Source: Nitrospinota bacterium | GTDB lineage: Bacteria > JADFOP01 | Length of the DNA stretch: 52,494 nucleotides | Assembly (NCBI GenBank): GCA_022562795.1 | Contig: JADFOP010000010.1 | Coordinates: forward strand, 1 to 52,494 | Reading direction: 5' to 3' | Shown here: piece by piece, positions 11,122-49,717 of the stretch | Position numbering within the stretch: the first letter of the stretch is position 1 | Layout of the letters: each line of letters opens with the position of its first letter | The notes under the pieces: model-generated | Databases searched by the model: none | What the model was told of the DNA's origin: nothing | The model's input: only the letters and a program-made list of their open reading frames with translations | Program-made: the position numbers and the translations under genes

Positions 11122-11558
11122 TTCGGGTCTCCATCGTCAACTATGATAAGGAAGTTATTTCCGCATTCTTTTGGGGAAATGATCTTTTTGAGACTGGGAG
11201 ACCTTGAAAGAATGAGAAATCCGAGAAACGTCGCCACAACACCGAAGAGGATCGTCAGTTCAAAAGCGATGATGATAAATGGGGGTATCGAGACAATGGG
11301 CTTGCCTCCGGTAATCAGCAAAGGCCATCTCAAAACCGTGTAAATAGGAAAAGCAAAGCCCGTAATGGTGCCGCTCAGGGCTCCAAAGAATGTGAAGAAC
11401 TTTAACCTACTTGGACGAACTTCAAGAATTTCATCGACTTCATGAACGTGTATGGGTGACAGCACCGAAATATCCTTTTTGGGAACACCTTCGCCAACGA
11501 GGTTTTCCAATTTAGCAATAAATTCCGCTTTGTCTTTATACGAATATTCTCTGCTCAC
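11118..11558 (-). CDS. actD: Alternative complex III subunit ActD (DUF3341)
   Basis: 146 residues. A short cytoplasmic region (about 1-55) with the typical EVDEILEVRPSRLKFFT is followed by two transmembrane helices (about 55-75 and 95-118) and a short charged tail. This matches ActD, a small membrane subunit with no known cofactor. It overlaps both neighbours by 4 bp, so the genes actC, actD and actF are translationally coupled. Confidence 0.9.
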   Translation of the reverse strand: MSREYSYKDKAEFIAKLENLVGEGVPKKDISVLSPIHVHEVDEILEVRPSRLKFFTFFGALSGTITGFAFPIYTVLRWPLLITGGKPIVSIPPFIIIAFELTILFGVVATFLGFLILSRSPSLKKIISPKECGNNFLIIVDDGDPK

Positions 11559-12853: not shown

Positions 12854-12875
12854 TATTCCGCCATACCTCTGTCGC

Positions 12876-15674: not shown

Positions 15675-15692
15675 GTTATCCTCCAGTGATCC

Positions 15693-16262
15693 TTATTTAT
15701 GACATGTCAAACAATCGATGGATGCCTTTTTTGATCTATGACAGGTGACACACCAACCCATGTTAAGTGAGCTGACTTGCCGGACCACGCTAACATTTTT
15801 TATTTCCCCGTGACAAGCTGAACATTCTAACCCAGCCTTGATGTGCCTCTTATGAGAGAAATAAACGTGATCGGGTAAATTATGCACTTTAATCCATGGA
15901 ACAGGCTGCTTGTTATTCCAATATTTGTGTAATTTTTTTATTTCTGGTCTGTCAGTAGCGATGACACTATGGCACGACATGCATTTCTGAACCGATGGAA
16001 CGCCGGCGTGTTGTGATTGCTCGACGTACGTATGGCAAAACGTACACTGAAGGCCGACTCTCGAGACGTGAATTTTATGACTAAAGGCGATAGGCTGCTG
16101 GGGCGCCTCGCTGGAAGAGAACCAACAACGTGGGTCTATCTTGCCGATGACGCCCTGTATGGGAATCTTCGGGCAGGGCGACAGCCCAGCTCCCAAGACT
16201 AGAAAGGCCAGCATTACCGGCGGCGTAAGAAGCAACAAAGGGATTAGAATTCTTTTCAACAT
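15693..16262 (-). CDS. actA: Alternative complex III subunit ActA (pentaheme cytochrome c)
   Basis: 189 residues with an N-terminal membrane anchor (residues about 5-28) and five CxxCH heme sites: CTFCH, CMSCH, CSACH, CVTCH and CLTCH. Extra histidines (FSHKIH, YFSHKRH) can serve as axial ligands. This pentaheme layout is the ActA subunit, which takes electrons from the Fe-S clusters of ActB in the periplasm. It sits 18 bp upstream of actB and 29 bp after the membrane cytochrome gene. Confidence 0.92.
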   Translation of the reverse strand: MLKRILIPLLLLTPPVMLAFLVLGAGLSPCPKIPIQGVIGKIDPRCWFSSSEAPQQPIAFSHKIHVSRVGLQCTFCHTYVEQSQHAGVPSVQKCMSCHSVIATDRPEIKKLHKYWNNKQPVPWIKVHNLPDHVYFSHKRHIKAGLECSACHGEIKNVSVVRQVSSLNMGWCVTCHRSKKASIDCLTCHK

Positions 16263-16291
16263 TCTAGGCCTTTTCTAAAATGCGTATAAGC

Positions 16292-17668
16292 CTACTTAGA
16301 AACTTCACCCTTTAGGCGTTTTAGAATATAACTCGCAACGCCACTTGCCTCTGACCTGTTAAGACCGTAATTGGGCATTGGAGGATATCCCGGGTCCTTC
16401 TTTGTAGGGCTCTGTATAAAAACGATCAATTCATCCGGATTACTTTCATATTTCGGAAGAACCGTGTTGAAGGGGGGTCCGACCAGCTTCTTGTCATAAA
16501 GATGACAGGCCGTGCAACGGGAATTAAAGATTTTTTCCCCACCCGCCTTGTCATGAACCGCCTCCTCCGACCTCATTTTTTCCGCCTCAGCCAGCAATTT
16601 TTTCCTGGCTTCATCAGCCTGAACGACAAGATTCAAGGTGTGGTCTCTTATTGCGTTCTCGACTGTAATTTGGTCGCTAATGCTAATGACCGAAAACGCT
16701 AGAATGAACAGAATTACCACGTGAACGACTGACTTTGACTTATCGTAAAACATTAATCTCGACTTATACGACGCCCCTTCCTTATGAAGCACGGCATGAG
16801 GTCGAACACCATGTATAAGGATTCCGTACAACAAGTAAAAGATTACCACGAACAACATTATGGAAAGTGAAGTCAATGCAAAGACTTTCGCCGACAAAGC
16901 GATAACGGGCAAGGTGATCAAATTCCACACTAGCATAACCGGCAAGATCGCAATACATGCAAGAGATAGGCCTGCGCAAAACTTTCTGATGAAGGCCCCA
17001 TACTCCTCGTCAATACTATCTGAGTCCTCATAGAACTCAAAAAAATAGAAGAGGGCTGCCCCGCCGGTAATTGCCAAGGAGGCAAATAAAAAAATCTTAT
17101 ATCTTGCTATCACACTCCAAGAAAAAAGTAGACTGTACGGGTCTGGGCGCTGAATAAAAGACCTCTTTTCAAAATCTGTTATCAAAGTCGTACCGCCGAT
17201 GAAGATGAAATAGGCTCCAAAGAGAACGGCCAGGCCCAGAATACCCCAGCAAATGTGGAGTAGAAATTGCTTATCACGCTTTGGGAATGTGTGTTGATAC
17301 ATGTAAATAAGGACTAGGCCGAGCGCTAAAAGAAACAAGGCGGAATTGAAAAAAGTATGTATTGGTAAGCCGGAACCATAAAGAATCTGGGAAAATAGAA
17401 CGGATAAGGTCATCAGAGGCAGGAGACCCAAAATCACTCCAAAGCTCTTATTGTATATGCCGGTCTCAAGCAAATCCTTGGCGAAACGAGAGTAAATGGG
17501 GTTGGGTTGCTTTTTATCCAGGATATTGAAAATGACGGACAATAACGAACTGCCTAAAAAAACACTGATGAAAGTAATATGGAGGAAGGTGACTAAGATG
17601 ATAAGGTATCCGAAGAGCGTGAGTTGATTGGCAGGGGGAGGCAGAACAAGTGATTCAATGCTCGGCAT
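16292..17668 (-). CDS. Polytopic membrane protein with C-terminal monoheme cytochrome c, in place of ActE
   Basis: 458 residues. Residues about 15-345 hold roughly eight hydrophobic helices with scattered histidines (FLHITF, YQHTF, LHICWG). A linker helix (about 345-365) follows, then a cytochrome c domain with one heme site RCTACH near residue 388 and a likely Met ligand in YPPMPNYGL. Classic act operons encode ActE as a small monoheme lipoprotein, and here the only monoheme domain is fused to a membrane protein. It is the first gene of the operon, 29 bp before actA. The membrane part is not one I can name with certainty; a role in heme b or quinone chemistry is only a possibility. Confidence 0.8.
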   Translation of the reverse strand: MPSIESLVLPPPANQLTLFGYLIILVTFLHITFISVFLGSSLLSVIFNILDKKQPNPIYSRFAKDLLETGIYNKSFGVILGLLPLMTLSVLFSQILYGSGLPIHTFFNSALFLLALGLVLIYMYQHTFPKRDKQFLLHICWGILGLAVLFGAYFIFIGGTTLITDFEKRSFIQRPDPYSLLFSWSVIARYKIFLFASLAITGGAALFYFFEFYEDSDSIDEEYGAFIRKFCAGLSLACIAILPVMLVWNLITLPVIALSAKVFALTSLSIMLFVVIFYLLYGILIHGVRPHAVLHKEGASYKSRLMFYDKSKSVVHVVILFILAFSVISISDQITVENAIRDHTLNLVVQADEARKKLLAEAEKMRSEEAVHDKAGGEKIFNSRCTACHLYDKKLVGPPFNTVLPKYESNPDELIVFIQSPTKKDPGYPPMPNYGLNRSEASGVASYILKRLKGEVSK

Positions 17669-31906: not shown

Positions 31907-32647
31907 CTAGGTCTTCAGGGGACTCTGCCAGCAGACTTTGCCCACAAAGAAAGGGCCCAGCGACTCAATATACTTGGCAGTTTGTTGGGTTTTTCTCATA
32001 TCCTGGACGAGGCGAGAGAGCGGATGGAGCTCAGGGCCTACCAGGCCCAGGACAAACTCATTGTCATTCTGGTCGAGCCCGAAACAGGCCAGACGAATAT
32101 CAAACGCATGGCCGCCCTGGGAGTAGGTTTTGCCAATCATCGCGTGCTCGCGGAGAATCTTTCCCTGCTCCACTTCAGTGAGTAAACCGAATTCTGGCCT
32201 CCGACGCAATGGGTACCAGATTGCCCAGGGCCACTCGGGGTTGAAGGCATAGCGCCGGGGCTTGACCAGCATCCAGTCTTCAAGATCGACCTCCCGGCCG
32301 GTCGAATAGGTTCTTCCTATCATCGTGAGTTCGGGCTTGCGCTGCAAAGACGAGAATGGCTCGCTGGCCAACACTGACCTCGCCTCGCCAACCAGGACGT
32401 CAGGGTCCTCAGTAATTACGAGCAGGCCAACGCCGAGCGGATCGTTCAGGTCGTGATACAACACGCCCTCTAGGCCGCTCTCGCTAAACGTCTCTTTCAG
32501 GCTCTCGGTATCGGCGCAATTCCCGAAGACGTGGAGCTGACAATAGAGCCGGCGGTCGAATTCTTGCGGAGCTCCATCACCTGGCGCTCCTACCTCTCCG
32601 AGCTCGGGATGGTCGGTCGCCGAGCGGGCCTGGGGGTCCGTCGCCAT
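31907..32647 (-). CDS. Chlorite-dismutase-family heme protein, HemQ-like
   Basis: 246 residues with two ferredoxin-like domains. The C-terminal half has WYPLRRRPEFGLL, the probable proximal heme ligand in LREHAMIGKTY, then FDIRLACFGLDQNDNEFVLGL and LVQDMRKTQQTAKYIESLGP. Aligned by eye on GLD, the distal arginine needed for chlorite dismutation is not in place, so chlorite breakdown is unlikely. The family also includes HemQ, coproheme decarboxylase, which would fit with hemL elsewhere in the window, but subgroup assignment is uncertain. Last gene of the Suf-type row, 148 bp after the Rieske ferredoxin. Confidence 0.82.
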   Translation of the reverse strand: MATDPQARSATDHPELGEVGAPGDGAPQEFDRRLYCQLHVFGNCADTESLKETFSESGLEGVLYHDLNDPLGVGLLVITEDPDVLVGEARSVLASEPFSSLQRKPELTMIGRTYSTGREVDLEDWMLVKPRRYAFNPEWPWAIWYPLRRRPEFGLLTEVEQGKILREHAMIGKTYSQGGHAFDIRLACFGLDQNDNEFVLGLVGPELHPLSRLVQDMRKTQQTAKYIESLGPFFVGKVCWQSPLKT

Positions 32648-32795
32648 TGCTCACCTCCTGGAACTTTTCCCAAGGGTATCACTGGCGGGCGAGGCTGGCA
32701 AGATTATGGGTCACCCACCCTACCCTTTTACGAGCTGATACTAACCACCGGAAATTATTTACGATGTTGAGCTAATTAGGAGGTTTGAAGACGTC

Positions 32796-33110
32796 TTAGT
32801 CGATAGAGACGAGAATCTGGTCGCCTTCGACCTTGACCGGAAAGGTCTCCACAGGTTCGCACGCGGGCATTCTGGTTACAGCTCCGGTGCGTACGTTGAA
32901 GCGGGCCCCGTGCCTTGGGCACTCGATCTCATCATCCCCTATCAGGTCCCCCTCGACGAGAGGGCCCCCGTCGTGGGTGCAGACGTCCTGTATGGCGTAG
33001 TATGTACCGCCGAGGTTGAAGATTGCCAGGGGCTCGCCGTCGACCTCCACTAACTTCTTCTCTCCCGGGCCTATCTCATCGGTCTTGGCGACCTCGAAAT
33101 ACTCCCCCAT
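32796..33110 (-). CDS. Rieske-type ferredoxin
   Basis: 104 residues, one Rieske domain with no membrane anchor. The 2Fe-2S ligands are CTH (Cys44, His46) and CPRH (Cys63, His66), the standard Cys-x-His...Cys-x2-His pattern. Such soluble Rieske proteins deliver electrons to oxygenases or, in Suf operons, are thought to take part in Fe-S assembly. It starts only 6 bp after sufU, so co-transcription is likely. Confidence 0.92.
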   Translation of the reverse strand: MGEYFEVAKTDEIGPGEKKLVEVDGEPLAIFNLGGTYYAIQDVCTHDGGPLVEGDLIGDDEIECPRHGARFNVRTGAVTRMPACEPVETFPVKVEGDQILVSID

Positions 33111-33116
33111 TGCCTC

Positions 33117-33587
33117 TTAAGCCTCCTCGTCATCGCTGGCGGGGGCGGGGTTATCGGCCTGGGCAACGGCCTCGCCCTCCCGACTCCGAGCCAGCATCTG
33201 CCGCTGCAGGTATCCCTTAATCCCAAAGCGGACGGCGTTCAGCCCCAGCGTGGAGCAGCGAGGACGGGTCATGGCCAGCTCACGGCCCAAGATTTCGATG
33301 ACGGCGTCGAGGGGAATCGCCTGCACCTCCTCCAGCGACTTGCCCTCCACCATCTCCATTATCATCGATGTGCCCGCCATGCTGAGAGTACATCCTTCCC
33401 CCTCGAAGGAGACCCCCTCGACGACATCCTGATCATTGATTTTGAGGTAGACCGTCACAAGGTCGTCACAGCCGGGATTGCCGATCCTCTGGACCACGTC
33501 CGCGTCATCCATAGAGCCCCAGTTGATCGGGTCTTCATAGTGCTCCATGATTAACTCGATCTGCTCTTCTCGGCTGAGTTTGTTCAC
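33117..33587 (-). CDS. sufU: SufU-type Fe-S scaffold or sulfur-transfer protein
   Basis: 156 residues, NifU N-terminal/IscU fold. The three key cysteines are in GNPGCDDLVTV, FEGEGCTLSMAGTSMI and RPRCSTLGLNAVRFG. The spacing between the second and third Cys suits the SufU subgroup with its short insertion. SufU normally accepts sulfur from SufS as a zinc protein, yet no sufS is present here. The last 25 residues are an acidic, Ala-rich tail. Confidence 0.92.
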   Translation of the reverse strand: MNKLSREEQIELIMEHYEDPINWGSMDDADVVQRIGNPGCDDLVTVYLKINDQDVVEGVSFEGEGCTLSMAGTSMIMEMVEGKSLEEVQAIPLDAVIEILGRELAMTRPRCSTLGLNAVRFGIKGYLQRQMLARSREGEAVAQADNPAPASDDEEA

Positions 33588-33629
33588 GTCCTCTGCCTCC
33601 TGCCGACTTTTTGTGACGGGCCTCTGGGC

Positions 33630-33965
33630 TTATCCCAAAGGGGTGGGAAGGCCAAGTCGCTGACGGTGCGCCCGGCAGGCCTCCTTCTGGTGGGTCAGGA
33701 TGTGTAGCGGCGCACGGGGCTTCGCCGTGCACAGAAGGATGAAGCCTTCTTCCTGATCAGCTGAATAGTACCGCAGGGAATCTGTGTGGTCGACCTCCCC
33801 TGATAGGAGCCGGCCGGCACAGGTTACGCACCACCCTACCAGGCAGCTAGCCGGCAGGTCATAACCAGCCTGCCAGGCAGCGTCCAGGATGTACTCATCC
33901 TCTGCCACCTCGATGGTGGCCACGGTGACGCCGTCGGTCAGAACGACCGGATAGGTTTGTGCCAC
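33630..33965 (-). CDS. Plant-type 2Fe-2S ferredoxin
   Basis: 111 residues, beta-grasp ferredoxin. Ligands Cys41, Cys46, Cys49 and Cys79 follow the pattern C-x4-C-x2-C-x29-C (ASCLVGWCVTCAGRL and GFILLC). Soluble one-electron carrier. Located between the Dps-like ferritin (6 bp) and sufU (42 bp), so it may supply electrons for cluster assembly or for iron release from the ferritin. The basic C-terminal tail is unusual for this class. Confidence 0.92.
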   Translation of the reverse strand: MAQTYPVVLTDGVTVATIEVAEDEYILDAAWQAGYDLPASCLVGWCVTCAGRLLSGEVDHTDSLRYYSADQEEGFILLCTAKPRAPLHILTHQKEACRAHRQRLGLPTPLG

Positions 33966-33971
33966 GATCGC

Positions 33972-34595
33972 TTATGGGTTGTAGAAGGGCGTGTTCCTGC
34001 TGTATGGTGCCTCTCCCGGTGTGCCCCGACGGAAGTGTCCAGAGGGCCGGACGATGCCATCCCGCTCCATGCTCAGAAGCTCGATGAACCAAGCCTCGTG
34101 CTCGATCTCCTCGTTGAGGATTCGGGCCGCCATATCGTAGGTCCGTGGGTCCTTGCCCGCGGTCATATCGCAGACTTCATTCCAGGTCCGTATCGCGCAG
34201 CGCTCGGCCTCAAGCAGGACTTCCAGGATATTTGCAGCGGTGGGCTCTTCCGGCAGGTAGGCGTCCGGACAGCTGGAGCGGTCGGCAAACGCCCGGATGT
34301 CCCGTGGGAGGCTGCCGCCCAGTTCATAGATTCGGGGCATGATCAGCTCGAAGTGGGCCCGGTCCTCTATGCGGGCATCCTCACAGATCTCCTTGTAGTC
34401 CTCATTACCCGCCAGGTACATCCGGAGGATGGTGTAGTAGTAGTAGGTCGTGAACTCCGCCCCGGCCGCATCGATCAGCTTCTCCACCAACTCCTCAACA
34501 TTCACACCACGGGCCACGATCTGCTCCACACCCACGCGCTGGGTGGTATCACCAGGCTTGACCCGTCCCTTGGCATGCGGTTTCTCCGTAGCCAT
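33972..34595 (-). CDS. Dps-like ferritin (thioferritin/DPSL type)
   Basis: 207 residues, four-helix ferritin fold. Metal ligands are visible as [37 protein letters not shown] and [14 protein letters not shown], a bacterioferritin-like diiron site in a Dps-sized protein. Cysteines at about 108 (SSCPD) and 131 (ERC) could form the disulfide described for DPSL proteins. It would oxidise Fe(II) with peroxide and store iron. It has a GGGAGG ribosome-binding site 7 nt before the ATG. Placed between the rhodanese and the ferredoxin of the Suf operon. Confidence 0.85.
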
Positions 34596-34773
34596 ACGTG
34601 TTCCTCCCTTCTCTCAGCTAGAGTAAGTCAAAACCAGAATGACCAAATGCTGAAGACAGCCGCCCGCGGCTGGCCTGGGCGCTATTGGGGCAGCTCCGGG
34701 CCTAGGGCCTCCATGGCGATATCTCCCGTCAGACAGGTCCGCGGCGGCGTCCTCCGCCCGGCCCTTAGTCCCT

Positions 34774-35640
34774 TTACGGCTTCTCTATGGGCGCCCTTAC
34801 GAGGTTGCCCCACTCGGTCCAGGAGCCGTCGTAGTTGCGCACCTCCTGGTAGCCCAGCAGGTAGGTCAAGACGAACCAGGTATGAGAGGACCGCTCGCCA
34901 ATGCGGCAGTACGCGATGATATCGTCGGCGGGGTCCAGATTGTTCTGTTCCTTGTAGATGGACCAGAGCTCCTCGGCCGACTTGAAGGTCTGGTCCTCGT
35001 TGACCGCCGTCCCCCAAGGGATGCTGGCCGCGCCCGGAATGTGGCCGCCGCGGAGAGCGCCCTCCTGCGGGTACTCCTCCATGTGAAGGAGCTCACCCGT
35101 AAACTCCCCTGGGGAGCGCACGTCCACCAAGGGCTTCTGCCCCTCAAGGTGCTTATCGACGTCCTCGCGGAACGCCCGTATCGTCTCCTCGTGAGTGCTT
35201 GTTACCTTATAGTCGGTGGCCGGGTAGGCGGGGACCTCTTTGCTGAACTCACGCCCCTCGTCGATCCACTTCTGGCGACCGCCGTCCATGATGCGGCACT
35301 TCTCGTGGCCGAAGAGCTTGAAGACCCAAAAGGCGTAGGTTGCCCACCAGTTGCTTTTGTCACCGTAAAAGACCACGGTGTGATCGTTGGCGATCCCTTT
35401 TTCAGAGACAAGCTGCTCGAAGGCTCCGGCATTAACGTAGTCCCGGATGAGCTGGTCCTGGAGTTCGGTCTGCCAGTCCACCTTCACGGCCCCTGGGACG
35501 TGGCCCACTTCATATAGGATGACGTCCTCGTCGGACTCCACTATACGGATTTCCGGGTCATCGAGGTGCTCCTCCACCCACTCCGTCGTCACTAAAACAT
35601 CTGGATTGACGTACTCTTTCACTGTTCTTTCCTCCATCAT
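34774..35640 (-). CDS. Thiosulfate sulfurtransferase (two-domain rhodanese)
   Basis: 288 residues with two rhodanese domains. The C-terminal one carries the catalytic cysteine in [20 protein letters not shown], the loop typical of thiosulfate:cyanide sulfurtransferases. The N-terminal domain (about 10-140) lacks the cysteine, as usual. It moves sulfane sulfur from thiosulfate to an acceptor. It occupies the place in the Suf operon where a cysteine desulfurase (sufS) is normally found. Followed by a 178-bp gap before the ferritin. Confidence 0.93.
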
Positions 35641-35777
35641 GATTTTGATCGGAAATCGGGAGCAGGTTAATCCTTAATCATCTATTCCAAGTTGTCAAGA
35701 ATAAAGTTGACTAAAAAGTTCAAGAAATTTTGAGGGCCTTCTACCGCCCCCCATATTGCTGTTAGAGTATCCGACGC

Positions 35778-37157
35778 CTACCGGGGGATAAGCGCCGCAT
35801 CTACGGCCTTCCGCAGGCGTCGCTCGATGACATCCGCTGTTATGCGCTGCAAGACCTGCTGGAAGAACCCCTCGACGATTATTCTTTGGGCGACATCGGG
35901 CGGCACCCCTCGGCTTCGAAGGTAAAAGAGCTGTTCCTTATCTAGCTGGCTGGCCGTGGCCGCGTGAGTGCAGCGGACCTCGTTGGCCTCGATCTGGAGC
36001 CCTGGAATTGAGTCGGCCCGGGCCCTCCTGTCCAACAGGAGGTTGTTGTTGACCTGATATGCGTCGGTCCCATCGGCCCCAGGGGCTACCCGGATCATGC
36101 CCCGCCAGACGGAGCGGGCTCTGTCGTTGAAGGTGCCTTTATAGAGCAGGTCGGAAGTGCAGTCGCGTGCCTGGTGGTCCTGATAGGTCTCGTAATCGAG
36201 ATGCTGGCGGCGGGTTCCCAACAGGAGGGCCAGCATCTCGGCCCGACCGCCCCGGTCCTGAAGCTCCACTTCCTGAAAAACCTTTGAGAGGCGGCTCCCC
36301 CAAAGCCCCGATACCCATTGGAGATGGCTGTCGCGGCCGAGGTGGGCCCGGTGGGTGGCGAAGTTCCAAACGCTCTGACCCCAAGCCTGTATGTGGCCGA
36401 ACTGGACATTCGCGCCGGGGCCGATGAAGAGCTCCACCCCGCCGACATGGAGGCCGGGGCCCATCCCGTTCTTGGAGGATAGCTCTTCGAGGAGCGTGAC
36501 CTGGCTATTATCCCCGGCGACGACCAGCGTGTGGGAGCTGTCGGCCACCTGCCCTGCGCGGAAGCTGACAACGGACTGGAGGGGGACGTCCACCACCACC
36601 CCCGGCGGAACGTAGAGGAACGTCCCCCCGGTGCAAAAGGCCCCGTGCAGTGCGGCGAACTTCTGCCCCCCTTCCGTAATCTTCCCCGTGAGATAGTAGC
36701 GCTCCAGCAGGTCCGAGTGTTGCCGGACGGCTGTGCCGATGTCGGTGAAGATAACCCCCCGGCGGGCCAAGTCCTCGTTTAGGTGGACGTGGACGGCGGT
36801 GCCGTTGGCGTGCACGACCACGTTCTCGGTGGCCGGCCCGCGTGGGATGGGAAGGGCCACGCCACGGGGTTTGGCGTCGAGATACTTCTCAGGCACATTC
36901 TGAGCCAAGGCCGACGCGAAAGAGCCGATCTCCAGGGCCCGGATGTCGGTCCGCCGCCAGGATTCATCGTCCGCCTTGGGCATGGGCAGGCGGACGAAAT
37001 CCTCCCAGGACGCCTCGCGCCGCTTACGCATCCAGGCCGGCTCGTCGCCCCTGGCGGCCAATAGATTGACGAAGGCCTCGGAGAAAGCCTGCGTGGTCTC
37101 CTCCGAGGCCAGAGATGCGGCGGCGGCCTCCGGCCTCTCCGCCTTTTTTCGGCTCAT
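35778..37157 (-). CDS. sufD: Fe-S assembly protein SufD
   Basis: 459 residues, SufBD family. N-terminal helical part, then the long right-handed beta-helix core and the C-terminal motif ANEVRCTHAATASQLDKEQLFYLRSRGV, which in the family contains the conserved histidine. It forms the SufBC2D complex with SufB and SufC, a scaffold that builds and hands on Fe-S clusters. sufD follows sufB by 59 bp. Confidence 0.94.
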   Translation of the reverse strand: MSRKKAERPEAAAASLASEETTQAFSEAFVNLLAARGDEPAWMRKRREASWEDFVRLPMPKADDESWRRTDIRALEIGSFASALAQNVPEKYLDAKPRGVALPIPRGPATENVVVHANGTAVHVHLNEDLARRGVIFTDIGTAVRQHSDLLERYYLTGKITEGGQKFAALHGAFCTGGTFLYVPPGVVVDVPLQSVVSFRAGQVADSSHTLVVAGDNSQVTLLEELSSKNGMGPGLHVGGVELFIGPGANVQFGHIQAWGQSVWNFATHRAHLGRDSHLQWVSGLWGSRLSKVFQEVELQDRGGRAEMLALLLGTRRQHLDYETYQDHQARDCTSDLLYKGTFNDRARSVWRGMIRVAPGADGTDAYQVNNNLLLDRRARADSIPGLQIEANEVRCTHAATASQLDKEQLFYLRSRGVPPDVAQRIIVEGFFQQVLQRITADVIERRLRKAVDAALIPR

Positions 37158-37216
37158 GGTCGTGCCTGCTCCTTTTCCGGTCGCCTAAGGTGTCTGTAAT
37201 TCTCGTTGAGGGCCGA

Positions 37217-38683
37217 TTAGCCCACGGAGCCTTCCATCTGGAGCTGGATGAGCCGGTTCATCTCGACTGCGTACTCCATCGGCAGCTCCCTCACGAGGGG
37301 CTCGATGAAGCCTCTGACAATCATGTTGGAGGCTTCCGCTTCACTAAGCCCGCGGCTCATGAGGTAGAAGAGCTGCTCGTCGCCGATCTTGCTCACCGTA
37401 GCCTCGTGCGCGATGGTCACCTCCTGCTCGTCGACTTCGATGTACGGGTAGGTGTCCGAGCGCGATTCCGCGTCCAGAATGAGGGCGTCGCAGACGACGG
37501 TGGACTTGGAGCCCACCGCCCCCTTGGCCACCTTCAGCAGCCCGCGGTAGCTGGCCCTCCCTCCGTTCTTGGCGATGGACTTGGATGTAATGACCGACGT
37601 GGTGTAGGGCGCAGCATGGATGACCTTCCCGCCGGCGTCTTGATGCTGGCCTCTGGAGGCGAAGGCGATGGAGAGAATCTCGCCGTGGGCGCCGGGCTCC
37701 ATCATGTAGACGCTGGGGTACTTCATGGTGAGCTTGCTGCCCAGGTTGCCGTCGACCCACTCCATCGTGGCATCCCGGTAGGCCACCGCCCGCTTCGTAA
37801 CGAGATTGTAGACGTTGTTGGACCAGTTCTGGATTGTCGTGTATCGCACCCGGGAGCCGGCCTTACAGATAATTTCCACCACGGCGCTGTGGAGCGAATC
37901 GGTTTCGAAGCTGGGCGCCGTGCAGCCCTCCACGTAGTGGACCTCGGCCCCCTCCTCGGCGATGATGATGGTGCGCTCGAACTGGCCCATCTTCTCGGAG
38001 TTAATGCGGAAGTAGGCCTGCAGAGGGATATCGACCTTGACACCCGCAGGGATGTAGACGAAGCTGCCGCCGCTCCAGACAGCAGTATTGAGGGCGGCAA
38101 ACTTGTTGTCCGCCGAGGGGATGATGCTGGTGAAGTACTCCCGGACGACATCGGGGTGTTCACGCAAAGCGCTGTCCATGTCGAGGAAGATGACCCCCTG
38201 GTCCGAGAGCTCCTTCTTCAGGCTGTGGTAGACGACCTCCGAGTCGTACTGGGCCCCTACCCCCCCGAGGAACTTCTGCTCGTCCTCGGGGATGCCGATC
38301 CGGTCGAAGGTCTCCTTGATGTTATCCGGAACCTCGTCCCACGTCTTGCCTTGGCTATCGGTCGGCCTGACGTAGTAATAGATGTCGTCGAAGTCCAGAG
38401 TGTTCAGATCCCCGCCCCACTGGGGAAGGGGCTTGGAGTAGAAAATCTCCAGGGCCTCCAGGCGGAGTTTTAGCATCCACTCAGGCTCTTCCTTAATCCA
38501 GGAGATCTCCTCCACGACCTCCTTTCTAAGCCCCTTGCTGGAGCGGAAGACTGACTCATCAGGGTAATGGAAGCCGTACTGGTAATCCCCGGTATCCTCT
38601 GACCCCTTCACCGGGACCGCCTGATCGATGGCGTCCTGGATTTTGGCCAAATCCGGCATTCCTTTCATTGATTCAGCAGCCAT
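37217..38683 (-). CDS. sufB: Fe-S assembly protein SufB
   Basis: 488 residues, normal length. Clear SufB signatures are [40 protein letters not shown], the [10 protein letters not shown] segment, and the C-terminal [26 protein letters not shown]. SufB is the subunit of SufBC2D that receives sulfur, normally from SufS with SufE or SufU. The gene order here is sufC, sufB, sufD, not the usual sufB, sufC, sufD. Confidence 0.96.
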
Positions 38684-38743
38684 TTCACCTTTCCTCCTTT
38701 ACGATGTTATGCAGCTTGATGGAAGCGGCGTTTTCTCGTTATT

Positions 38744-39517
38744 CTACGACGCCAACTCCTTGACCATGTCGTAGCCTTTGGCTTCAAGCTCGTGGGCCAG
38801 CTCCGGGCCGCCCGAGCGGACAATTCGCCCGTCCAGCATGATGTGGACGAAGTCAGGTTTGATGTAATTAAGAATACGCTGGTAATGCGTGATTAGCAAC
38901 ACCCCGAGCTCGCTGCTCATCTGCCGGTTGACCCCTTCGGCCACGGCCTGGAGGGCGTCGATGTCTAGCCCCGAGTCGGTCTCATCCAGGACGGCCATAC
39001 GGGGCTTAAGCAGGGCCATCTGGAGAATCTCGGCCCGCTTCTTCTCCCCGCCCGAAAACCCGTCGTTCAGGTGGCGCCTGGCGAAAGCGGTGTCGATTCC
39101 GAGCTCCGTCATCCGCTCAATGATCTCCTTTCGGAACTCCCGCATGGGAATGAGGTTTGTGGTCCGGCCTTCCTCGGAAGGCCCAAGCCGGATCGAGCTG
39201 ACAGCCGTCCGGAGGAAGTCAGCCACGCTGACCCCGGGAACGGCGGTCGGGTACTGGAAGGCAAGGAAGAGGCCTTTTCGGGCCCGCTCGTCGGGCTCCA
39301 TCTCCAGGATGTTCTCCCCGTCGAGCAGCACCTCCCCCTCATCCACCTCATAGGAGGGATGGCCCATAAGGACGTAGGCCAGGGTGCTCTTACCCGAACC
39401 GTTGGGCCCCATGAGGGAATGAATCTCTCCCGCCCGGACCGTAAGGTCGACCCCCTTCAAGATTTGGTTGCCCTCCACGCTCGCGTGGAGGTTACGGATA
39501 ACCAGTTCCGCTCCCAT
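38744..39517 (-). CDS. sufC: Fe-S assembly ATPase SufC
   Basis: 257 residues from ATG 39517, which gives the family N-terminus [23 protein letters not shown]-type ATPase: Walker [17 protein letters not shown] near residue 35, signature [17 protein letters not shown], Walker [17 protein letters not shown], and the Suf-type change from -PD to GLDIDAL. It drives conformational changes of SufBD. The open frame extends upstream into sufR but those 76 residues are not SufC-like. GAGAGG lies 13-14 nt upstream, a loose ribosome-binding site. Confidence 0.95.
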
Positions 39518-39578
39518 ATTAGCTATAATTCCTCTCTCATCAGTCCTATCGGTTTCATACAGCGAACCTCGGGCCAGC

Positions 39579-40238
39579 CTACCCAGAGGCCTCAGCCTCA
39601 CTCTCGGGGGCCGCAACAGCGTATACGCAGGACGTCTGCTCCTCATCCAGGATGCACTGGTGGAGCTCGACCCTGGACTGCAGGAGGTTCTCCAACATAG
39701 TTCGCTCCATCTCGCAGATAGCCGGGTAGGTGGCCACGACCTCATGGTACGGGCAGTTATACATGTTCAGAGTGTAGCCCTCCGGGGCCGGTTCCACCTC
39801 TGTCAAATGCCCTCGCCCGGTCAATTGCTTCGCCAAATAAGCAAGCCGGTCGGCCAGCGGTTGGCCGACAGGCAGGGGCCCGAAGGTGTCGGCCAGCTTT
39901 CTGCCGACACGTCCCAGGAGGTTTCGTAGCCTGGCCTCGCCTTCGGTGGCCTGTATCTCATCGAGCACACCCATAAGGAGCGTTTCGTACTCCCGGGCGA
40001 AGAGCTTGTTGCCCTCGGCGGAGAGAGAGTAAAGTCCCCTGGGCCGCCCCACGCCCCGGCTCTCAATGGTCCGCTCCACGAGCCCCTTGGCCTCCAAGGC
40101 CGAAAGCTGCTGGCGAACGGCCGTGCGGGTCACTCCCAGGGCTTCCTGGAGCTCCTTGATGGTCATCCTGCCGTGGCGCTTGAGGCTCCGAACCAGCGCC
40201 TCGGCCGGCGAAGATTTTCCTATCGCCATCGAACCCAT
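39579..40238 (-). CDS. sufR: SufR-type Fe-S-sensing transcriptional repressor
   Basis: 219 residues. The N-terminal winged helix-turn-helix (about 12-75: [20 protein letters not shown], then [12 protein letters not shown]) belongs to the DeoR/ArsR-like SufR group. The C-terminal part has four cysteines: [14 protein letters not shown] (C-x12-C) and [12 protein letters not shown] (C-x8-C), which can bind a 4Fe-4S cluster. SufR proteins repress the suf operon when Fe-S supply is good. It is first in the operon, next to a strong promoter with an inverted repeat in its spacer (40298-40312). Confidence 0.92.
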
Positions 40239-40293
40239 TGATTTTACTCACGCTTTAAAAGGGCCGTCGGGCTCTTGCCCGTTGCCTATAGAG

Positions 40294-40322
40294 AATATAG
40301 GAGGGAATCCTAATAATGTCAA
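40294..40322 (-). promoter_or_regulatory. Promoter of the sufR-suf operon
   Basis: Consensus TTGACA at 40317-40322, 17-bp spacer, TATATT at 40294-40299 on the minus strand. The 5' leader of about 50 nt contains a hairpin CGGGC-TCTT-GCCCG (40268-40281). Confidence 0.75.
40298..40312. promoter_or_regulatory. Putative SufR operator
   Basis: Inverted repeat TAGGA-N5-TCCTA set in the spacer between -35 and -10 boxes of the suf promoter, where a bound repressor would block RNA polymerase. Assignment to SufR is by position only. Confidence 0.5.
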
Positions 40323-44619: not shown

Positions 44620-45285
44620 TTATATATCCGCAGCTCCAACCAAACCCATATCGATTAACCATGGAGGGTCTGTCGGCCCGAAGTCCGAGCCGTAGCTGAC
44701 CCTGGCGGCGGGGCTGCTGAGTGTTGCCCCATTTTCGTCAATAACGGCCCATCTCAGAGAGGGAGCATAATAAACCACTGAAACCGACCTTACGTTCAAC
44801 GTAGGCTGCCCCAACAAGCGCATGAAGAAAAGGGCTATGAAGTTGTGGCGGACTTCGGGGCGCTGAGCCGTGACCCGTACGCTATTGGCATCCGCTTCCT
44901 CGCCGGGCGCCGATGCGGCAAACTTCTTTGTTTGCATATCATAGGCGCCGATTTCGATATCTTCCGAAGCGAGTGTGACCGGAATGCCGCCGATTGCATA
45001 CCGCTGGGCCTGGAGCTGAGCCTGGCCTCTGGCTTCTTCTGGACCGTATCGCAGGTTCGCGGCGGCGGCCAGAGAGGCTGAGTAGGTGGCGTTTCGAAGC
45101 GTGGAGCGGACGACGTAAAGATAGCCCTGATCGGTGACGAGCCCTAAAAATCCGACGAGAGCTACCAGGAGCAGCAACGAGCGTAAGGAATCGACGGCCC
45201 CCGCTCCCTTACCTCTATCGTGAGAACTGGTGAACGCCACCCAGTGCCAGATACGATAAATACTTGAAGCTCTATTACCAATCAT
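44620..45285 (-). CDS. Short TadG-like pilus-associated protein
   Basis: 221 residues. One hydrophobic helix (about 35-55: LRSLLLLVALVGFLGLVTD) is followed by a TadG-like region (GYLYVVRSTLRNATYSASLA, then NLRYGPEEARGQAQLQAQR) clearly related to the two larger proteins upstream. It keeps the IEIGAYDMQTKKF and FFMRLLG segments but lacks the beta-helix domain, ending in a different short tail. Last of four TadG-like genes, 24 bp after its neighbour. Probably a shortened paralogue; whether it works is unknown. Confidence 0.8.
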   Translation of the reverse strand: MIGNRASSIYRIWHWVAFTSSHDRGKGAGAVDSLRSLLLLVALVGFLGLVTDQGYLYVVRSTLRNATYSASLAAAANLRYGPEEARGQAQLQAQRYAIGGIPVTLASEDIEIGAYDMQTKKFAASAPGEEADANSVRVTAQRPEVRHNFIALFFMRLLGQPTLNVRSVSVVYYAPSLRWAVIDENGATLSSPAARVSYGSDFGPTDPPWLIDMGLVGAADI

Positions 45286-45309
45286 TTTCGCATCCCCCCC
45301 GTTGCTCTC

Positions 45310-46617
45310 CTATTGGACGAGAACAGGTCGTACAGTGGCGACATCTATCCCCACGTTCTTGAGGAGCGCCAACTCGTACAAGGACTCGTCGTAATGAACT
45401 GCACCTGAACTATTGAGCGAGACCTCTTCTCCCATTACAGCCCCATAAAAATCGACGGTGCTGCCGTTCACAACATGCGCGTTGGGTGCGTATAGAACGC
45501 CATAGAAATCGACGTTGTGGTTAAGTTGCACATCCTCGTTGGAGGAGGCCATAATGATAAGGTTCTCCGGGTTTTGGCCAGGATTGATGATGTTCGAATT
45601 ACTCACCGAGAAGGTCCCGGTAAGGTAAATGACGGTCGGTCCATCCACCTGTAGCGATGCGCCATTGCTAAGTTCGACCGAGGTGAAGTAGTATCGGCCA
45701 CCGGGTAAAGTGATGCTGTCGCCGCTACTGAGCGCGAGATCGTAAGGCCCCATCTCAAAAGGATCTTTGCCCCCGTCCGTCACAGCCGGGATGTTGCCGT
45801 TGTCGTTGTTCGTAGCTATGTCGCCGAACTCGATGTCGTCCAAAACCGGGCACCCCCCAGGGTTCGTCGAACCGGTTACATAGGAAGAATCATTCAGGAT
45901 AACCGTCTTATCCGGGCCTGGACGGGCATCGCCCTTCACGACCGACACTGAGTTGAGCTCTATGTCTCCGCAGCTGCAGACATCCCCATTTTGACCGGCC
46001 GTGGCGGGGCTGTACGGCCCGAGTTCGGAGTTGTAGCTATCGGTGGTGGACGAGCTGTTGAGGGTTACTTTCTTTTGGCCGATAATGCCCCCTCCACACG
46101 GACCCATCCTGTACGACACGGCCATAACCCTTACGTCCGAGGTCTCGTGCCCGAAAATGCGCATGAAAAAGAGGGAGATGGGGTCATTTCGGTCTTTTGA
46201 ACGTTGGGCCGTAACACGTACGCTATCGGCGTTCGCCTCTTCGGCTGGCGCCAGGACGGTAAACTCCTTGGTCCCTATTTCCCAGGTGCCAAGCTCGATG
46301 TCAGCCAGAACGAGGGCTACTGGAGTGCCGCCGACGTTGTGCTGCTGGGCCAGGAGCTGAGCCTGTTTGCGGACCTCATCAGGGCCGTAAGTAAGGCTTG
46401 AGACGGCGGCAAGGGATGCGGCGTCAGCGGCGTTATGAAGCGTCGAGCGAACCACGAACAGATGACCCAGGTCGATGACGAGGCCTGCAAAAGCGAGTAG
46501 TACAGCGAGAAGAACCGTTACGAGAACAATAACATTTCCCCGTTGACCTAGCAGGCGGGGGAACAACCCCACTTGAGCCAAAGAATTGCTTCTTGAATCT
46601 TTCGTATTCATCTTCAT
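45310..46617 (-). CDS. TadG-like protein with C-terminal beta-helix domain
   Basis: 435 residues. The N-terminal membrane helix (about 26-46, NVIVLVTVLLAVLLAFAGLV) and IDLGHLFVVRSTLHNAADAA identify a Tad/TadG-type pilus protein. Residues about 200-425 are a repeat-rich, Ser/Asn-rich domain ending with VDFYGVLYAPNAHVVNGSTV and VHYDESL, features of the DUF7305-type right-handed beta helix found in pilus-tip or secreted proteins. Very similar to the next gene upstream, with a 74-bp stretch identical in DNA. Likely exposed outside the cell, perhaps for attachment. Confidence 0.85.
   Translation of the reverse strand: MKMNTKDSRSNSLAQVGLFPRLLGQRGNVIVLVTVLLAVLLAFAGLVIDLGHLFVVRSTLHNAADAASLAAVSSLTYGPDEVRKQAQLLAQQHNVGGTPVALVLADIELGTWEIGTKEFTVLAPAEEANADSVRVTAQRSKDRNDPISLFFMRIFGHETSDVRVMAVSYRMGPCGGGIIGQKKVTLNSSSTTDSYNSELGPYSPATAGQNGDVCSCGDIELNSVSVVKGDARPGPDKTVILNDSSYVTGSTNPGGCPVLDDIEFGDIATNNDNGNIPAVTDGGKDPFEMGPYDLALSSGDSITLPGGRYYFTSVELSNGASLQVDGPTVIYLTGTFSVSNSNIINPGQNPENLIIMASSNEDVQLNHNVDFYGVLYAPNAHVVNGSTVDFYGAVMGEEVSLNSSGAVHYDESLYELALLKNVGIDVATVRPVLVQ
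45754..45827 (-). repeat. 74-bp block identical to 47107-47180
   Basis: Perfect identity between the two large TadG-like genes, encoding the stretch around DIATNNDNGNIPAVTDGGKD, while flanking DNA has diverged. Confidence 0.85.
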
Positions 46618-46641
46618 TCCCTCATGACCGCCCTTGTTGAG

Positions 46642-47970
46642 CTACTGGACGAGAACAGAGCTCACCGTGTTGCCGGGGAGAATCTCCACGTCGCTAAGGA
46701 GAGCAATGTCGCCCAGAGATTCGTCGTAATGGACCACGACCGAACTATTTAGAGTGATCTCTTGTGCCATGATGGCCCCATAAAACCCGACGCCGCTGTT
46801 AAGCACAACATGCGCATTGGGCGCGTAGATGATGCCGTAGAAATCGACGTTGTGGTTAAATTGCACATCCTCGATGGAGGAGACCATAATGATGAGGTCC
46901 TCCGGGTTTTGACCCGTATTCACGATCGTCGAACTATGCATTTCGAACTTCCCGGTCACGTACATGACGGTCGGTCCCATCACCGTTAGGGTTGAGGAAT
47001 GGGCAATATCGACCGATGTGAAGTAGTATCGGGCCGGGTTCAGACTAGTGCCACCGGGCAAGGTGAGACTGTCTTCGTTATGGAGCGCGAGATCGTAAGG
47101 CCCATCCTCAAAAGGATCTTTGCCCCCGTCCGTCACAGCCGGGATGTTGCCGTTGTCGTTGTTCGTAGCTATGTCGCCGAGCTCAACGTCGGCCAAAACC
47201 GGGCACCCGCCGGGTTTAGTCGAACCTGTCACGTAGGAGGAGTTATTCATGATAACAGTATTATCCGGGCCTGGATTGGCATTGCCCCGCACGATGGCAG
47301 ATGAGTTGAGCTCTATGTCTCCGCAGCTGCAGACATCCCCATTTTCATTGGCACTGACGGGGCTGTACGGCCCATAGTCGGAATTGTAGCTATCGGTGCC
47401 AGTTGAGCTGTTAAACGTTATCTTTGTCTCGCCGATAATTCCTCCGCACAAAGCTGGCTCATAGTGCGCCACGGCCATCACCCTTACGTCCGAGTCCTCG
47501 TACCCGAAAATACGCATAAAGAAGAGGGATATTGGGTTGTTGCGGGCGCTGGAACGCTGAGACGTGACCCGGACACTATCGGCGTTTGCCTCTTGGTCTG
47601 GCGCCAAAACGGTAAAGGTCTTGGAGCCCTCATCCCAGTTTCCAAGGTCGATGTCGGCCAGGACGAGAGTTACCGGAGTGCCGTCGACAGCGTGATGTTG
47701 GGCGAGGATCTGAGCCTGGTTACGGGCCTCATCGGGGCCGTAGCTCAGGCTTGCGGCAGCGGCCAGAGAGGCGGAGTCAGCGGCGTTCTGAAGCGTTGAG
47801 CGGACTACGAACAGATGGCCCAGATCGATGACTATGCCCGCAAAACCAATCAAAACAGCGAGGACCACCGCAACTATAACGACTACAGCTCCCCCTTCGT
47901 CAGCCAACAGGCCGGGCAACGACTCCCTACGGGACAAAGAATTACGCCTTGTTTTTATCTCTACCTTCAT
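46642..47970 (-). CDS. TadG-like protein with C-terminal beta-helix domain
   Basis: 442 residues, paralogue of the downstream gene. The N-terminus has LADEGGAVVVIVAVVLAVLIGF (membrane helix about 24-45), then DLGHLFVVRSTLQNAADSAS. The Ser/Asn/Thr-rich C-terminal region (about 190-430) has GGIIGETKITFNSS, DVCSCGDIELNSS, VDFYGIIYAPNAHVVLNS and VVHYDESL, as in DUF7305-type beta-helix domains. The 27 bases before and over its start copy the end of tadE, showing it arose by tandem duplication. Presumed envelope or pilus-tip protein. Confidence 0.86.
   Translation of the reverse strand: MKVEIKTRRNSLSRRESLPGLLADEGGAVVVIVAVVLAVLIGFAGIVIDLGHLFVVRSTLQNAADSASLAAAASLSYGPDEARNQAQILAQHHAVDGTPVTLVLADIDLGNWDEGSKTFTVLAPDQEANADSVRVTSQRSSARNNPISLFFMRIFGYEDSDVRVMAVAHYEPALCGGIIGETKITFNSSTGTDSYNSDYGPYSPVSANENGDVCSCGDIELNSSAIVRGNANPGPDNTVIMNNSSYVTGSTKPGGCPVLADVELGDIATNNDNGNIPAVTDGGKDPFEDGPYDLALHNEDSLTLPGGTSLNPARYYFTSVDIAHSSTLTVMGPTVMYVTGKFEMHSSTIVNTGQNPEDLIIMVSSIEDVQFNHNVDFYGIIYAPNAHVVLNSGVGFYGAIMAQEITLNSSVVVHYDESLGDIALLSDVEILPGNTVSSVLVQ
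47107..47180 (-). repeat. 74-bp block identical to 45754-45827
   Basis: Second copy of the identical block shared by the two large TadG-like paralogues; likely a gene-conversion tract. Confidence 0.85.
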
Positions 47971-47993
47971 TCACGCATTACCCCTCTTGAGGT
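47967..47993 (-). repeat. Remnant copy of the tadE 3' end
   Basis: Nearly identical to 49253-49279, the tadE C-terminal codons plus the overlapping start of the next gene. A more decayed copy precedes the gene starting at 46617. It marks the duplication unit that created the TadG-like series. Confidence 0.7.
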
Positions 47994-48044
47994 AAGTGCT
48001 ATCCACCACTGACCAAGGGCTGCAACACTCACTAACCTCCCCCT

Positions 48045-49256
48045 CTACTGAATGAGCACAGGCGCGGAAAGAGTGGGATTGGGATCGGTACCCTCACCCC
48101 CTAGGATAAACTTCGTGGAGGCGAATTCCGTAAATGTGACGTCAATATGGCGATCCGCTTGATCGCCGGTGAGCTTAACGTCCGTGATAATGGCCCCAAC
48201 AAAGCTAATCACATAGTAGAGGGTCCCGGCCGCCTTATCCGTGACCTTGTTAAAGACAGGAAAGACCACTCTATTGCCGTACTGCGATCCGAGGAAAGTT
48301 GTCAATGAGCTTCCCGAGATGCCAGGGTCGCCCTCCAGCTTCAGGCACTTGCAGCCGTCCTCAGGGAGAATTAAGTAATCATCGAAGCCGTACTCGATCC
48401 AAAATTTTATATCGTCGTTTGAATTTTCACCACCGTCGAGGTCGAGGACGCCGAAGTTGGCCTCGCTCTGGATGTGAGGGTAAATGTCTTTAGGGTCGGG
48501 GAGGCCATCCCCATCCCCATCGACCAGCCAGGTATCTCTTACGGCGATGGGCATGAGGATACCAGGCCCTACGCCGATAACCCGATGATCTAGCGTGGTA
48601 ACAGCAACGGCTGCCGCCCCCATCGACTCCCTGCCCCAAATGCGCGCAAAGATCGTGGGCACCGGCCCGGCCGCCGTCCCGGCGGACCGGCGAATCTGAA
48701 CTCGAAGCGTCTCAGGGCCAAGGACGATTACGTCTACGGCGTCCGCTTCGGGGGCCGTATGGTTGAGGCGAAATTGGCCGTCATCTGTGGCGAAGGCCAC
48801 AGCCATAGTCTGAGCATAATCTTCACCGTTGTGAACCAACTCTACTACCCCCGCCAAGGCTCCCGCGTCGGCCGCGTTCTGAAGCTCGCCGCGGACGACA
48901 AAGAGCACGCCAAGGTCTATCACCATTGCGGCAAAACCGATTAGAACAGCGAGGACCACCGCAACTATAACGACTGTAGCTCCCTCTTCGTCAGCCAATA
49001 GGCCGGGGAGCGACCATGAATCAGGAAGTCCAATCGCAACGATTACAGCTCCCCCTTCGTCAGCCAACAGGCCGGGGGGCGACCATGAATCAGGAAGTCC
49101 AATCGCAACGATTACAGCTCCCCCTTCGTCAGCCAACAGGCCGGGGAGCAACCATGAATCAGGAAGTCCAATCGCAACGATTACAGCTCCCCCTTCGTCA
49201 GCCACCAGGCCGGGGAGCGACCATGAATATCGCCTTGTATTTTTATTTATCTTCAT
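48045..49256 (-). CDS. TadG-like protein with repeated N-terminal segment
   Basis: 403 residues. Residues about 15-83 are three copies of a 23-residue unit with core PGLLADEGGAVIVAIGLPDS. A fourth partial copy leads into the real membrane helix (about 95-115) and DLGVLFVVRGELQNAADAGA, the TadG signature. The later part has an aspartate-rich, calcium-loop-like DGDGDGLPDPKD (about 260) and no beta-helix repeat like the two paralogues. The ATG overlaps the tadE TGA, so the genes are coupled. The repeat is exact enough in DNA to be recent. Confidence 0.85.
   Translation of the reverse strand: MKINKNTRRYSWSLPGLVADEGGAVIVAIGLPDSWLLPGLLADEGGAVIVAIGLPDSWSPPGLLADEGGAVIVAIGLPDSWSLPGLLADEEGATVVIVAVVLAVLIGFAAMVIDLGVLFVVRGELQNAADAGALAGVVELVHNGEDYAQTMAVAFATDDGQFRLNHTAPEADAVDVIVLGPETLRVQIRRSAGTAAGPVPTIFARIWGRESMGAAAVAVTTLDHRVIGVGPGILMPIAVRDTWLVDGDGDGLPDPKDIYPHIQSEANFGVLDLDGGENSNDDIKFWIEYGFDDYLILPEDGCKCLKLEGDPGISGSSLTTFLGSQYGNRVVFPVFNKVTDKAAGTLYYVISFVGAIITDVKLTGDQADRHIDVTFTEFASTKFILGGEGTDPNPTLSAPVLIQ
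48970..49214 (-). repeat. 69-bp tandem repeat inside the TadG-like gene
   Basis: Period 69 bp, three complete copies (49008-49214) and a more diverged partial fourth. The copies differ at a few positions only. 69 is a multiple of three, so copy-number change keeps the frame. Confidence 0.92.
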
Positions 49257-49717
49257 TCACGCATTACCGCTGTCGAGGTTATAGTAATTCCCTCTCCCCA
49301 GCCCTCGTTGCCCGCGAACATCTCCAGCAAGGCCCCGAGAGGGGTCATGTATGCAATGTTGTAAGAGATGGCCACCTGGTGGGCCTGAGCGGTGGTAGTG
49401 CCCACAGGAATGATCACGATCGTCTGGCAGATGCCCGTGTAGCCTAGCGAAGGGCTGGTGGAACACGATTCCGTAGGCGATGGGATACCCGCCGGCTCCA
49501 ATATTCGATTGGCTGCCACGGTATAGGGCTCAAAGTCAGTAGCCGAGGCCCGAGCGGCCTCCCGTGAAGCGTTTGTAATAACCTGATGGCTGTATAAGAC
49601 ACGGCCAAACTCGATAATGCCCATCAGGATGATCATCAGAAATGGCAGCACCAGGGCCATCTCAACTGCGGCGGCCCCTCCGTCTGCCGAGACTATGCGG
49701 CGCAACCGCTGCAACAT
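49253..49717 (-). CDS. tadE: TadE-like pseudopilin
   Basis: 154 residues. The N-terminus contains the pseudopilin motif DGGAAAVEMALVLPFLMIILMG, cut after glycine with Glu at +5, followed by the TadE-typical EFGRVLYSHQVITNASREAARA. A minor pilin of the Tad (tight adherence) type IVb system that is processed by a TadV-type peptidase not seen here. Between flp and the TadG-like genes on the same strand; its stop overlaps the next start. Confidence 0.9.
   Translation of the reverse strand: MLQRLRRIVSADGGAAAVEMALVLPFLMIILMGIIEFGRVLYSHQVITNASREAARASATDFEPYTVAANRILEPAGIPSPTESCSTSPSLGYTGICQTIVIIPVGTTTAQAHQVAISYNIAYMTPLGALLEMFAGNEGWGEGITITSTAVMRE

Follow-up and report, generated by a model that had tools for sequence, protein, structure and literature searches.

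A ten-gene operon of a Nitrospinota bacterium is a variant of the SUF iron-sulfur (Fe-S) assembly operon, unusual but not unique. In this operon, an SseA-type rhodanese and a SufU-like carrier could provide the sulfur input instead of the SufS-SufU pair, and a stress-type ferritin cassette would have been added; we hold this reading, the best of those considered, tentatively, as one with nearly as much chance of being right as wrong. Bacterial Fe-S assembly is described as drawing its sulfur from cysteine via a desulfurase. The combination of a rhodanese with a carrier that has lost two SufS-docking residues suggests that clusters might be fed by sulfur not derived from cysteine, and such an alternative input is testable with few purified proteins. 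The operon is located in assembly GCA_022562795.1 on contig JADFOP010000010.1, whose positions 1-52,494 (52,494 nt) constitute the whole analysed stretch, hereafter the window. The window genome is designated G000, and G001, with its suf locus L019, is the sole other genome of the genus.

Organization of the operon

The ten genes are all carried by the minus strand and run from 40238 to 31907. They are given below in operon order, as open reading frames identified with Pfam and NCBIfam models, together with the associated non-coding elements.

40294..40322, minus strand: sigma70-like promoter upstream of sufR (TTGACA-17-TATATT, 11/12 consensus matches)
39579..40238, minus strand: sufR-like winged helix-turn-helix Fe-S regulator (TIGR02702 80 bits, cut-off 178.8)
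38744..39517, minus strand: sufC ATPase (TIGR01978 342 bits, over cut-off 213)
37217..38683, minus strand: sufB scaffold (TIGR01980 712 bits, over cut-off 346)
35778..37157, minus strand: sufD scaffold (TIGR01981 256 bits, over cut-off 222)
35693..35698, minus strand: TTGACA element, possible second promoter or operator, 53 bp ahead of the rhodanese start
34774..35640, minus strand: two-domain SseA-type rhodanese (PF00581; loop CRIGERS, Cys245)
34596..34773, minus strand: 178-bp non-coding gap (89% identical in G001)
33972..34595, minus strand: DPSL (thioferritin-type) mini-ferritin (NF040955 297 bits, over cut-off 250)
33630..33965, minus strand: plant-type 2Fe-2S ferredoxin (PF00111; TIGR02008 78.5 bits, cut-off 81.15)
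33117..33587, minus strand: SufU-like protein of the rhodanese-linked NifU_N clade (PF01592; tree, residues and AlphaFold model)
32796..33110, minus strand: Rieske-type soluble ferredoxin (PF00355)
31907..32647, minus strand: predicted Cld/ChdC-fold heme protein (PF06778; model fold match)

A preliminary description of this DNA, made from the letters alone, had proposed a one-direction operon with these ten identities. Both the direction and the identities were confirmed by the Pfam and NCBIfam matches and by locus L019, which has an identical ten-gene order with proteins 72-95% identical to those of the window. This conserved order indicates that the arrangement is not accidental and rules out a chance co-location. 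The intergenic gaps of 137 bp (sufD-rhodanese) and 178 bp (before DPSL) had also been given correctly. Upstream of the operon, nadA lies on the same strand and ends at a distance of 239 bp. Since the SufR, SufU and HemQ/Cld models match with scores well under their cut-offs, the three corresponding window proteins are divergent members of these families.

The scaffold proteins clearly belong to the SUF system. SufC has the Walker A, signature and H-loop residues of its E. coli counterpart. Alignment with the E. coli K-12 proteins revealed the equivalents of C254, C405, H433 and E434 in SufB and of C358 and H360 in SufD, so that the catalytic residues of SufB (C254, C405, E434) and SufD (H360) are all present. 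In a SufB tree, the window protein is found among Chloroflexota and other SufBs, with deep forks that are poorly separated. The SufR-like protein falls short of TIGR02702, a cyanobacterial model; its residues C162, C175 and C204 are invariant in 15/15 suf-linked homologues and constitute predicted Fe-S cluster ligands, as in SufR. The Rieske gene is a common suf-operon gene, being found in 13 of the 22 SufB loci read, the window locus not counted.

The promoter upstream of sufR has a TTTTGGCATAA-GAGTTGACA box conserved in G001. A simple scan found no other promoter-like site on the same strand inside the operon, and internal terminators were not in excess over those of shuffled sequences. The sufD-rhodanese gap is 59% identical to that of G001, save for a conserved TTCTTGACAA-TTGG block holding the TTGACA element; no good -10 element was found for this TTGACA (35698-35693).

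Absence of SufS from the genome

The sufS gene is absent from the window operon, as had been noticed earlier, and thus the dedicated SufS of SUF systems is missing from this locus. Over the whole genomes of G000 and G001, no class II SufS exceeds the TIGR01979 cut-off (best score 178 of 475 bits), and the best SufS-model matches are IscS/NifS proteins. By comparison, SufS over the cut-off is present in 41 of 45 other genomes with a strong SufB. The genome-wide lack of SufS is therefore rare, yet cysteine desulfurases are present. Indeed, G000 (2.15 Mb, 97% complete) contains eight Aminotran_5 matches. Three of them belong to the class I desulfurases, one being NifS-type and the other two scoring over the IscS model PRK14012, and all three lie on contigs other than that of the window. 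One IscS is encoded in an iscS-iscU-hscB-hscA locus on contig C24 (L009; hscB and hscA identified from sequence), and the second stands alone on contig C37, away from iscU. G001 likewise carries three class I desulfurases. The genome search for sufS or iscS, called for in the preliminary description as a check of an alternative sulfur supply, therefore had a divided outcome: no sufS was found elsewhere, as that idea would have it, but the two iscS, the NifS-type gene and the ISC locus speak against it. A cell without any desulfurase is ruled out by these same genes.

Two of these loci have distinctive neighbours. The iscS-iscU-hscB-hscA cluster of L009 lies directly behind nitrite oxidoreductase/nitrate reductase-like subunit genes (NxrB-like, by eye). 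The NifS-type gene (L011:6026-7895, contig C9 of G000) lies directly behind a serine-acetyltransferase-like gene, forming a cysteine-making and cysteine-using pair.

The SufU-like protein

In a tree of NifU_N proteins, the desulfurase-linked SufU/IscU and the rhodanese-linked proteins fall on separate sides of a split with a support of 100/99, and the window SufU-like protein belongs to the rhodanese-linked group. In SufU, Tyr9 is a strictly conserved SufS contact, Gly41 is a further one, and the protein carries an insertion of 21-23 residues (PMC10216065). Tyr9 was found in 17/17 desulfurase-linked NifU_N proteins, the IscU of the same genome included, and in only 2 rhodanese-linked ones; both the window protein and its G001 counterpart have Gln instead. 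The Gly41 position is occupied by Asp in the window protein and by Ala in G001. The insertion is absent, the second and third Cys being separated by 44 residues instead of the 60-63 of SufU that carry it, and is also missing from some SufS-linked Chloroflexota SufU. The SufU cut-off of TIGR01994 is not reached either (75 vs 92.5 bits). The window "SufU" is thus not a SufS-type SufU, as judged from its sequence, two SufS-docking residues being lost. Furthermore, the residue preceding the third Cys is Arg in the window and Lys in G001, in place of the His of the own IscU, so that the SufU-like protein does not qualify as an IscU-type scaffold. Its zinc-type ligands (Cys40, Asp42, Cys66, Cys111) are all in place, and an AlphaFold model (predicted local distance difference test score, pLDDT, 91) matches IscU and SufU structures. 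Compared with the actinobacterial and Firmicute SUF systems based on Zn-SufU and SufS (PMC10216065), the window shares the SufBCD scaffold, the zinc-type SufU ligands and a SufR-type regulator, but lacks SufS, and its SufU-like protein lacks the insertion, Tyr9 and Gly41.

Rhodanese-linked NifU-type proteins form a widespread and apparently unnamed class, found in Chloroflexota, Gemmatimonadota, Rubrobacter, Limnochordaceae and Dadabacteria. In the Rubrobacter-type loci L065 and L066, the rhodanese-linked SufU-like protein is devoid of the second and third Cys and of the Asp ligand, one Cys being left as in SufE.

The rhodanese and its linkage to suf genes

The window rhodanese contains two rhodanese domains (PF00581), and its nearest PDB matches are 1UAR (T. 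thermophilus), 8K55 and 3HZU (M. tuberculosis SseA), all with E-values of 1e-109 or better (5e-110 for 3HZU). Its active loop CRIGERS fits the thiosulfate sulfurtransferase motif CRxGx[R/T] (PMC12375888), placing it in the SseA-type family, and a thiosulfate sulfurtransferase activity is predicted. Both this loop and the loop 185-201 of SseA, the reported SufE contact, align without gaps to the window protein. In M. tuberculosis, SseA binds the neighbouring SufE at low-micromolar affinity, and SufE activates the rhodanese about fourfold (PMC12375888). As in the window, the SseA-type rhodanese gene of the Rv3283-Rv3284 pair adjoins that of a SufE/SufU-class sulfur acceptor, a pair with which the rhodanese-linked NifU-type class can thus be connected. 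However, the mycobacterial acceptor is SufE-type, lies outside a suf operon and was not assigned to Fe-S assembly by the authors (PMC12375888), whereas that of the window is SufU-like and lies within the operon.

The rhodanese survey covered 20 of the best neighbourhoods out of a 386-genome survey, to which the genome collection added 80 named loci. Among these 100 loci, 4 were left out of the acceptor count as incomplete beside the rhodanese; a SufE-type or NifU-type protein is encoded close to the rhodanese in 56/96 (~58%), nearly always directly downstream. In L038, L039, L040 and L058 (family f73 and Dadabacteria), a SufE-type and a SufU-like protein are both encoded after the rhodanese.

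The rhodanese is linked to suf genes in twelve distinct loci, nearly all from Chloroflexota, so the pairing is not an invention of G000 alone. Of the 386 genomes, G000, G001, G062, G333 and G203 are the only ones in which the rhodanese gene has sufB in its neighbourhood. Four Chloroflexota loci (L059, L062, L068, L081) have the order sufD-rhodanese-SufU-like, then SufS-SufU-Rieske, and three others (L050, L051, L077) carry SufS inside the operon, which ends with the rhodanese. Since rhodanese and SufS occur together in these seven loci, a simple replacement of SufS by the rhodanese, as the position of the latter had first suggested, is rejected as a general rule. In L060, the rhodanese is followed by a SufE-SufT fusion. 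Three Caldilineaceae loci (L064, L067, L078) have the order sufR-C-B-D-rhodanese-SufU-Rieske, and no SufS over the cut-off was found in their genomes (best score ~220 bits). They lack SufS as the window does, but their SufU fall on the desulfurase-linked side of the NifU_N tree and are of SufS-type, unlike that of the window. Taken with the four L059-type loci, these make seven Chloroflexota loci that share with the window the order sufC-B-D-rhodanese-NifU_N protein-Rieske, with sufR in several. However, 4/7 also have SufS and a second, SufS-type SufU, both missing from the window, and none has a DPSL, plant-type 2Fe-2S ferredoxin or Cld-fold gene nearby, all three of which the window has. No literature on Chloroflexi suf operons with a rhodanese was found. 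The full ten-gene set was not found outside the genus in the genomes searched. The earlier impression that no described system has this full set thus holds for the ten genes together, but not for the rhodanese-suf part, which occurs in Chloroflexota.

Possible sulfur sources for SufBCD

In the sulfur path that we propose, Cys245 of the rhodanese would take sulfane sulfur from thiosulfate or another donor and hand it to Cys40 of the SufU-like protein, which would pass it to Cys254 of SufB for cluster building by SufBC2D. The Rieske ferredoxin may help with reduction, and SufR would sense the cluster status. DPSL and the 2Fe-2S ferredoxin, as later additions, would probably give protection against peroxide and iron, and the terminal Cld-fold protein is probably tied to heme maturation. 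The gene content, its shared order, the lack of class II SufS, the clade and residues of the SufU-like protein, the intact SufBCD active sites and the separate history of the insert are observed; the individual transfers, the donor of the sulfur, and what the ferredoxins, the ferritin and the Cld-fold protein do are what we infer. This scheme is favoured by the conserved order in G001, the genome-wide lack of SufS, the clade of the SufU-like protein with its lost Tyr9 and Gly41, the adjacency of rhodanese and acceptor genes, the M. tuberculosis SseA-SufE pair and the Caldilineaceae operons. An alternative sulfur input, as suggested in the preliminary description, is accordingly backed by the acceptor adjacency, the rhodanese-linked SufU-like protein and the missing SufS, and weakened by the existence of other desulfurases. 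A more far-reaching version, in which SUF would be independent of cysteine desulfurases, is possible but doubtful; here, a non-SufS SufU-like protein would carry sulfane sulfur from the rhodanese to SufBCD in this genus, and another SufU would do so in Caldilineaceae.

Several observations weigh against a sulfur supply by the rhodanese. The two IscS and the NifS-type desulfurase of G000 could feed the SufU-like protein. Thiosulfate is probably not the physiological substrate of SseA, and the mycobacterial SufE may not serve Fe-S assembly (PMC12375888). The TTGACA element ahead of the rhodanese gene could reflect a separate transcription unit. Finally, the locus L173 of G267 has the order sufR-C-B-D-SufU-like-Rieske-SufT, with a SufU-like protein 48% identical to that of the window, and the G267 genome contains neither SufS nor a recognisable SseA-type rhodanese; its desulfurases are class I only, all under the IscS cut-off. 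The SufU-like clade is therefore not dependent on the rhodanese everywhere.

G267, with its SufU-like protein, class I desulfurases only and no such rhodanese, is the strongest evidence for the main and serious rival. Here, the sulfur of SUF would come from a class I desulfurase encoded elsewhere (IscS or NifS-type), with the rhodanese in an accessory role, the addition or recycling of sulfane sulfur under stress. The three class I desulfurases and the ISC locus of G000, the three enzymes of G001 and the solitary IscS gene of contig C37 are all consistent with such a supply. On the other hand, none of these genes lies in or near the operon, and the Tyr9 shared by all 17 desulfurase-linked NifU_N proteins is lost in the SufU-like protein; on balance, we consider this supply rather unlikely.

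A direct feeding of SufBCD by free sulfide, with another role for the SufU-like protein, appears very improbable. Such a mode is known from the archaeal SMS system (SmsBC), which comes from a desulfurase-free genome and uses sulfide (PMC12192291), and G267, without SufS and without this rhodanese, would fit it. Like the window operon, SMS is a SUF-type scaffold without SufS, but it has no SufD, carrier or genomic desulfurase (PMC12192291), whereas the window system has SufD, the SufE sulfur-entry site Cys254 of SufB and a conserved carrier, and its genome contains class I desulfurases.

The probable ferritin-ferredoxin insert

The DPSL and 2Fe-2S ferredoxin genes have a history separate from that of the other operon genes. 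At 4-fold sites, G000 and G001 are 93% identical in DPSL and 85% in the ferredoxin, versus 72% in the rhodanese and 47-69% in nadA and the remaining operon genes (sufR, C, B, D, SufU-like, Rieske, Cld; Fisher p ~7e-16, with sites treated as independent). Codon usage differs as well, the 4-fold sites of the two genes being richer in A/T and less biased than those of the operon backbone. A codon bias behind this conservation is unlikely, since these sites are less biased and conservation is about as high in the adjoining non-coding gap. Indeed, the identity of the 178-bp gap is far above that of most other gaps, and a one-base indel relative to G001 breaks any shared reading frame. This gap is GC-rich with stable predicted folds, has no Rfam match, and may belong to the exchanged tract or act as a leader. 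The high 4-fold identity, the conserved gap and the Chloroflexota loci, where the rhodanese adjoins the SufU-like gene without a ferritin between, together suggest that the cassette was inserted later between rhodanese and SufU-like genes and recently exchanged within the genus.

The DPSL protein matches NF040955, and its C109 and C133 align with Cys of the Sulfolobus DPSL 2CLB (E 1e-74), corresponding to the cysteine pair by the ferroxidase centre that is described for DPSL thioferritins (PMC12532284). The cysteines of the 2Fe-2S ferredoxin are Cys 41, 46, 49 and 79. DPSL has a preference for H2O2 and is involved in oxidative stress responses (PMC12532284), and in two genomes examined its gene lies beside Fur-like and/or peroxiredoxin-like genes (by eye from sequence). 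These contexts and this preference make iron protection no less likely a role than iron donation. The idea of the ferritin as a dedicated iron source for assembly thus loses ground, DPSL-Fer2 being a separate insert with a recent exchange and with such neighbours elsewhere. Among the genomes searched, a ferritin-ferredoxin cassette in suf is restricted to this genus, and DPSL is not near sufB in any of 11 other DPSL genomes. As for rhodanese and DPSL at sufCBD loci, for which a survey had been suggested, the link to suf genes recurs outside this genus for the rhodanese but, in the genomes searched, not for DPSL.

These features could also be explained if rhodanese, DPSL and ferredoxin formed a stress cassette (for cyanide, sulfane sulfur and peroxide) that has only its location and regulation in common with suf. 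The TTGACA element ahead of the rhodanese, the younger, recombined DPSL-Fer2 tract, the neighbours of DPSL elsewhere and the tie of M. tuberculosis SseA to oxidative stress (PMC12375888) all point in this direction. In Chloroflexota, however, the rhodanese is found directly between sufD and the SufU-like gene without any ferritin, indicating that the rhodanese-suf link is independent of the insert and probably older, and we regard a mere stress cassette as improbable.

The terminal Cld-family gene

The model of the Cld-family protein (pLDDT 87) has its best fold matches with HemQ/coproheme decarboxylase, and the scores for the curated HemQ/ChdC models NF042928 and NF008913 are 41 and 36 bits, versus cut-offs of 235 and 253. 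In L161 and L163, relatives are encoded next to a hemH-like gene (by eye). Other relatives are found in open reading frames of 574-629 aa (L158, L159, L160, L162, L166); the two of these that were tested carry an N-terminal aldo/keto reductase domain, a fusion that may point to the function of the Cld-family protein.

Other regions of the window

An alternative complex III operon-like block (by eye) at 10069-17668 has a GC content of 42-49%, versus 54-63% around it, and was possibly horizontally acquired. A run of TadE/TadG-like paralogues occupies 44620-49717, and in the protein of the open reading frame 48045-49256 a short motif is repeated in tandem (LLADEGGAVIVAIGLPDSW).

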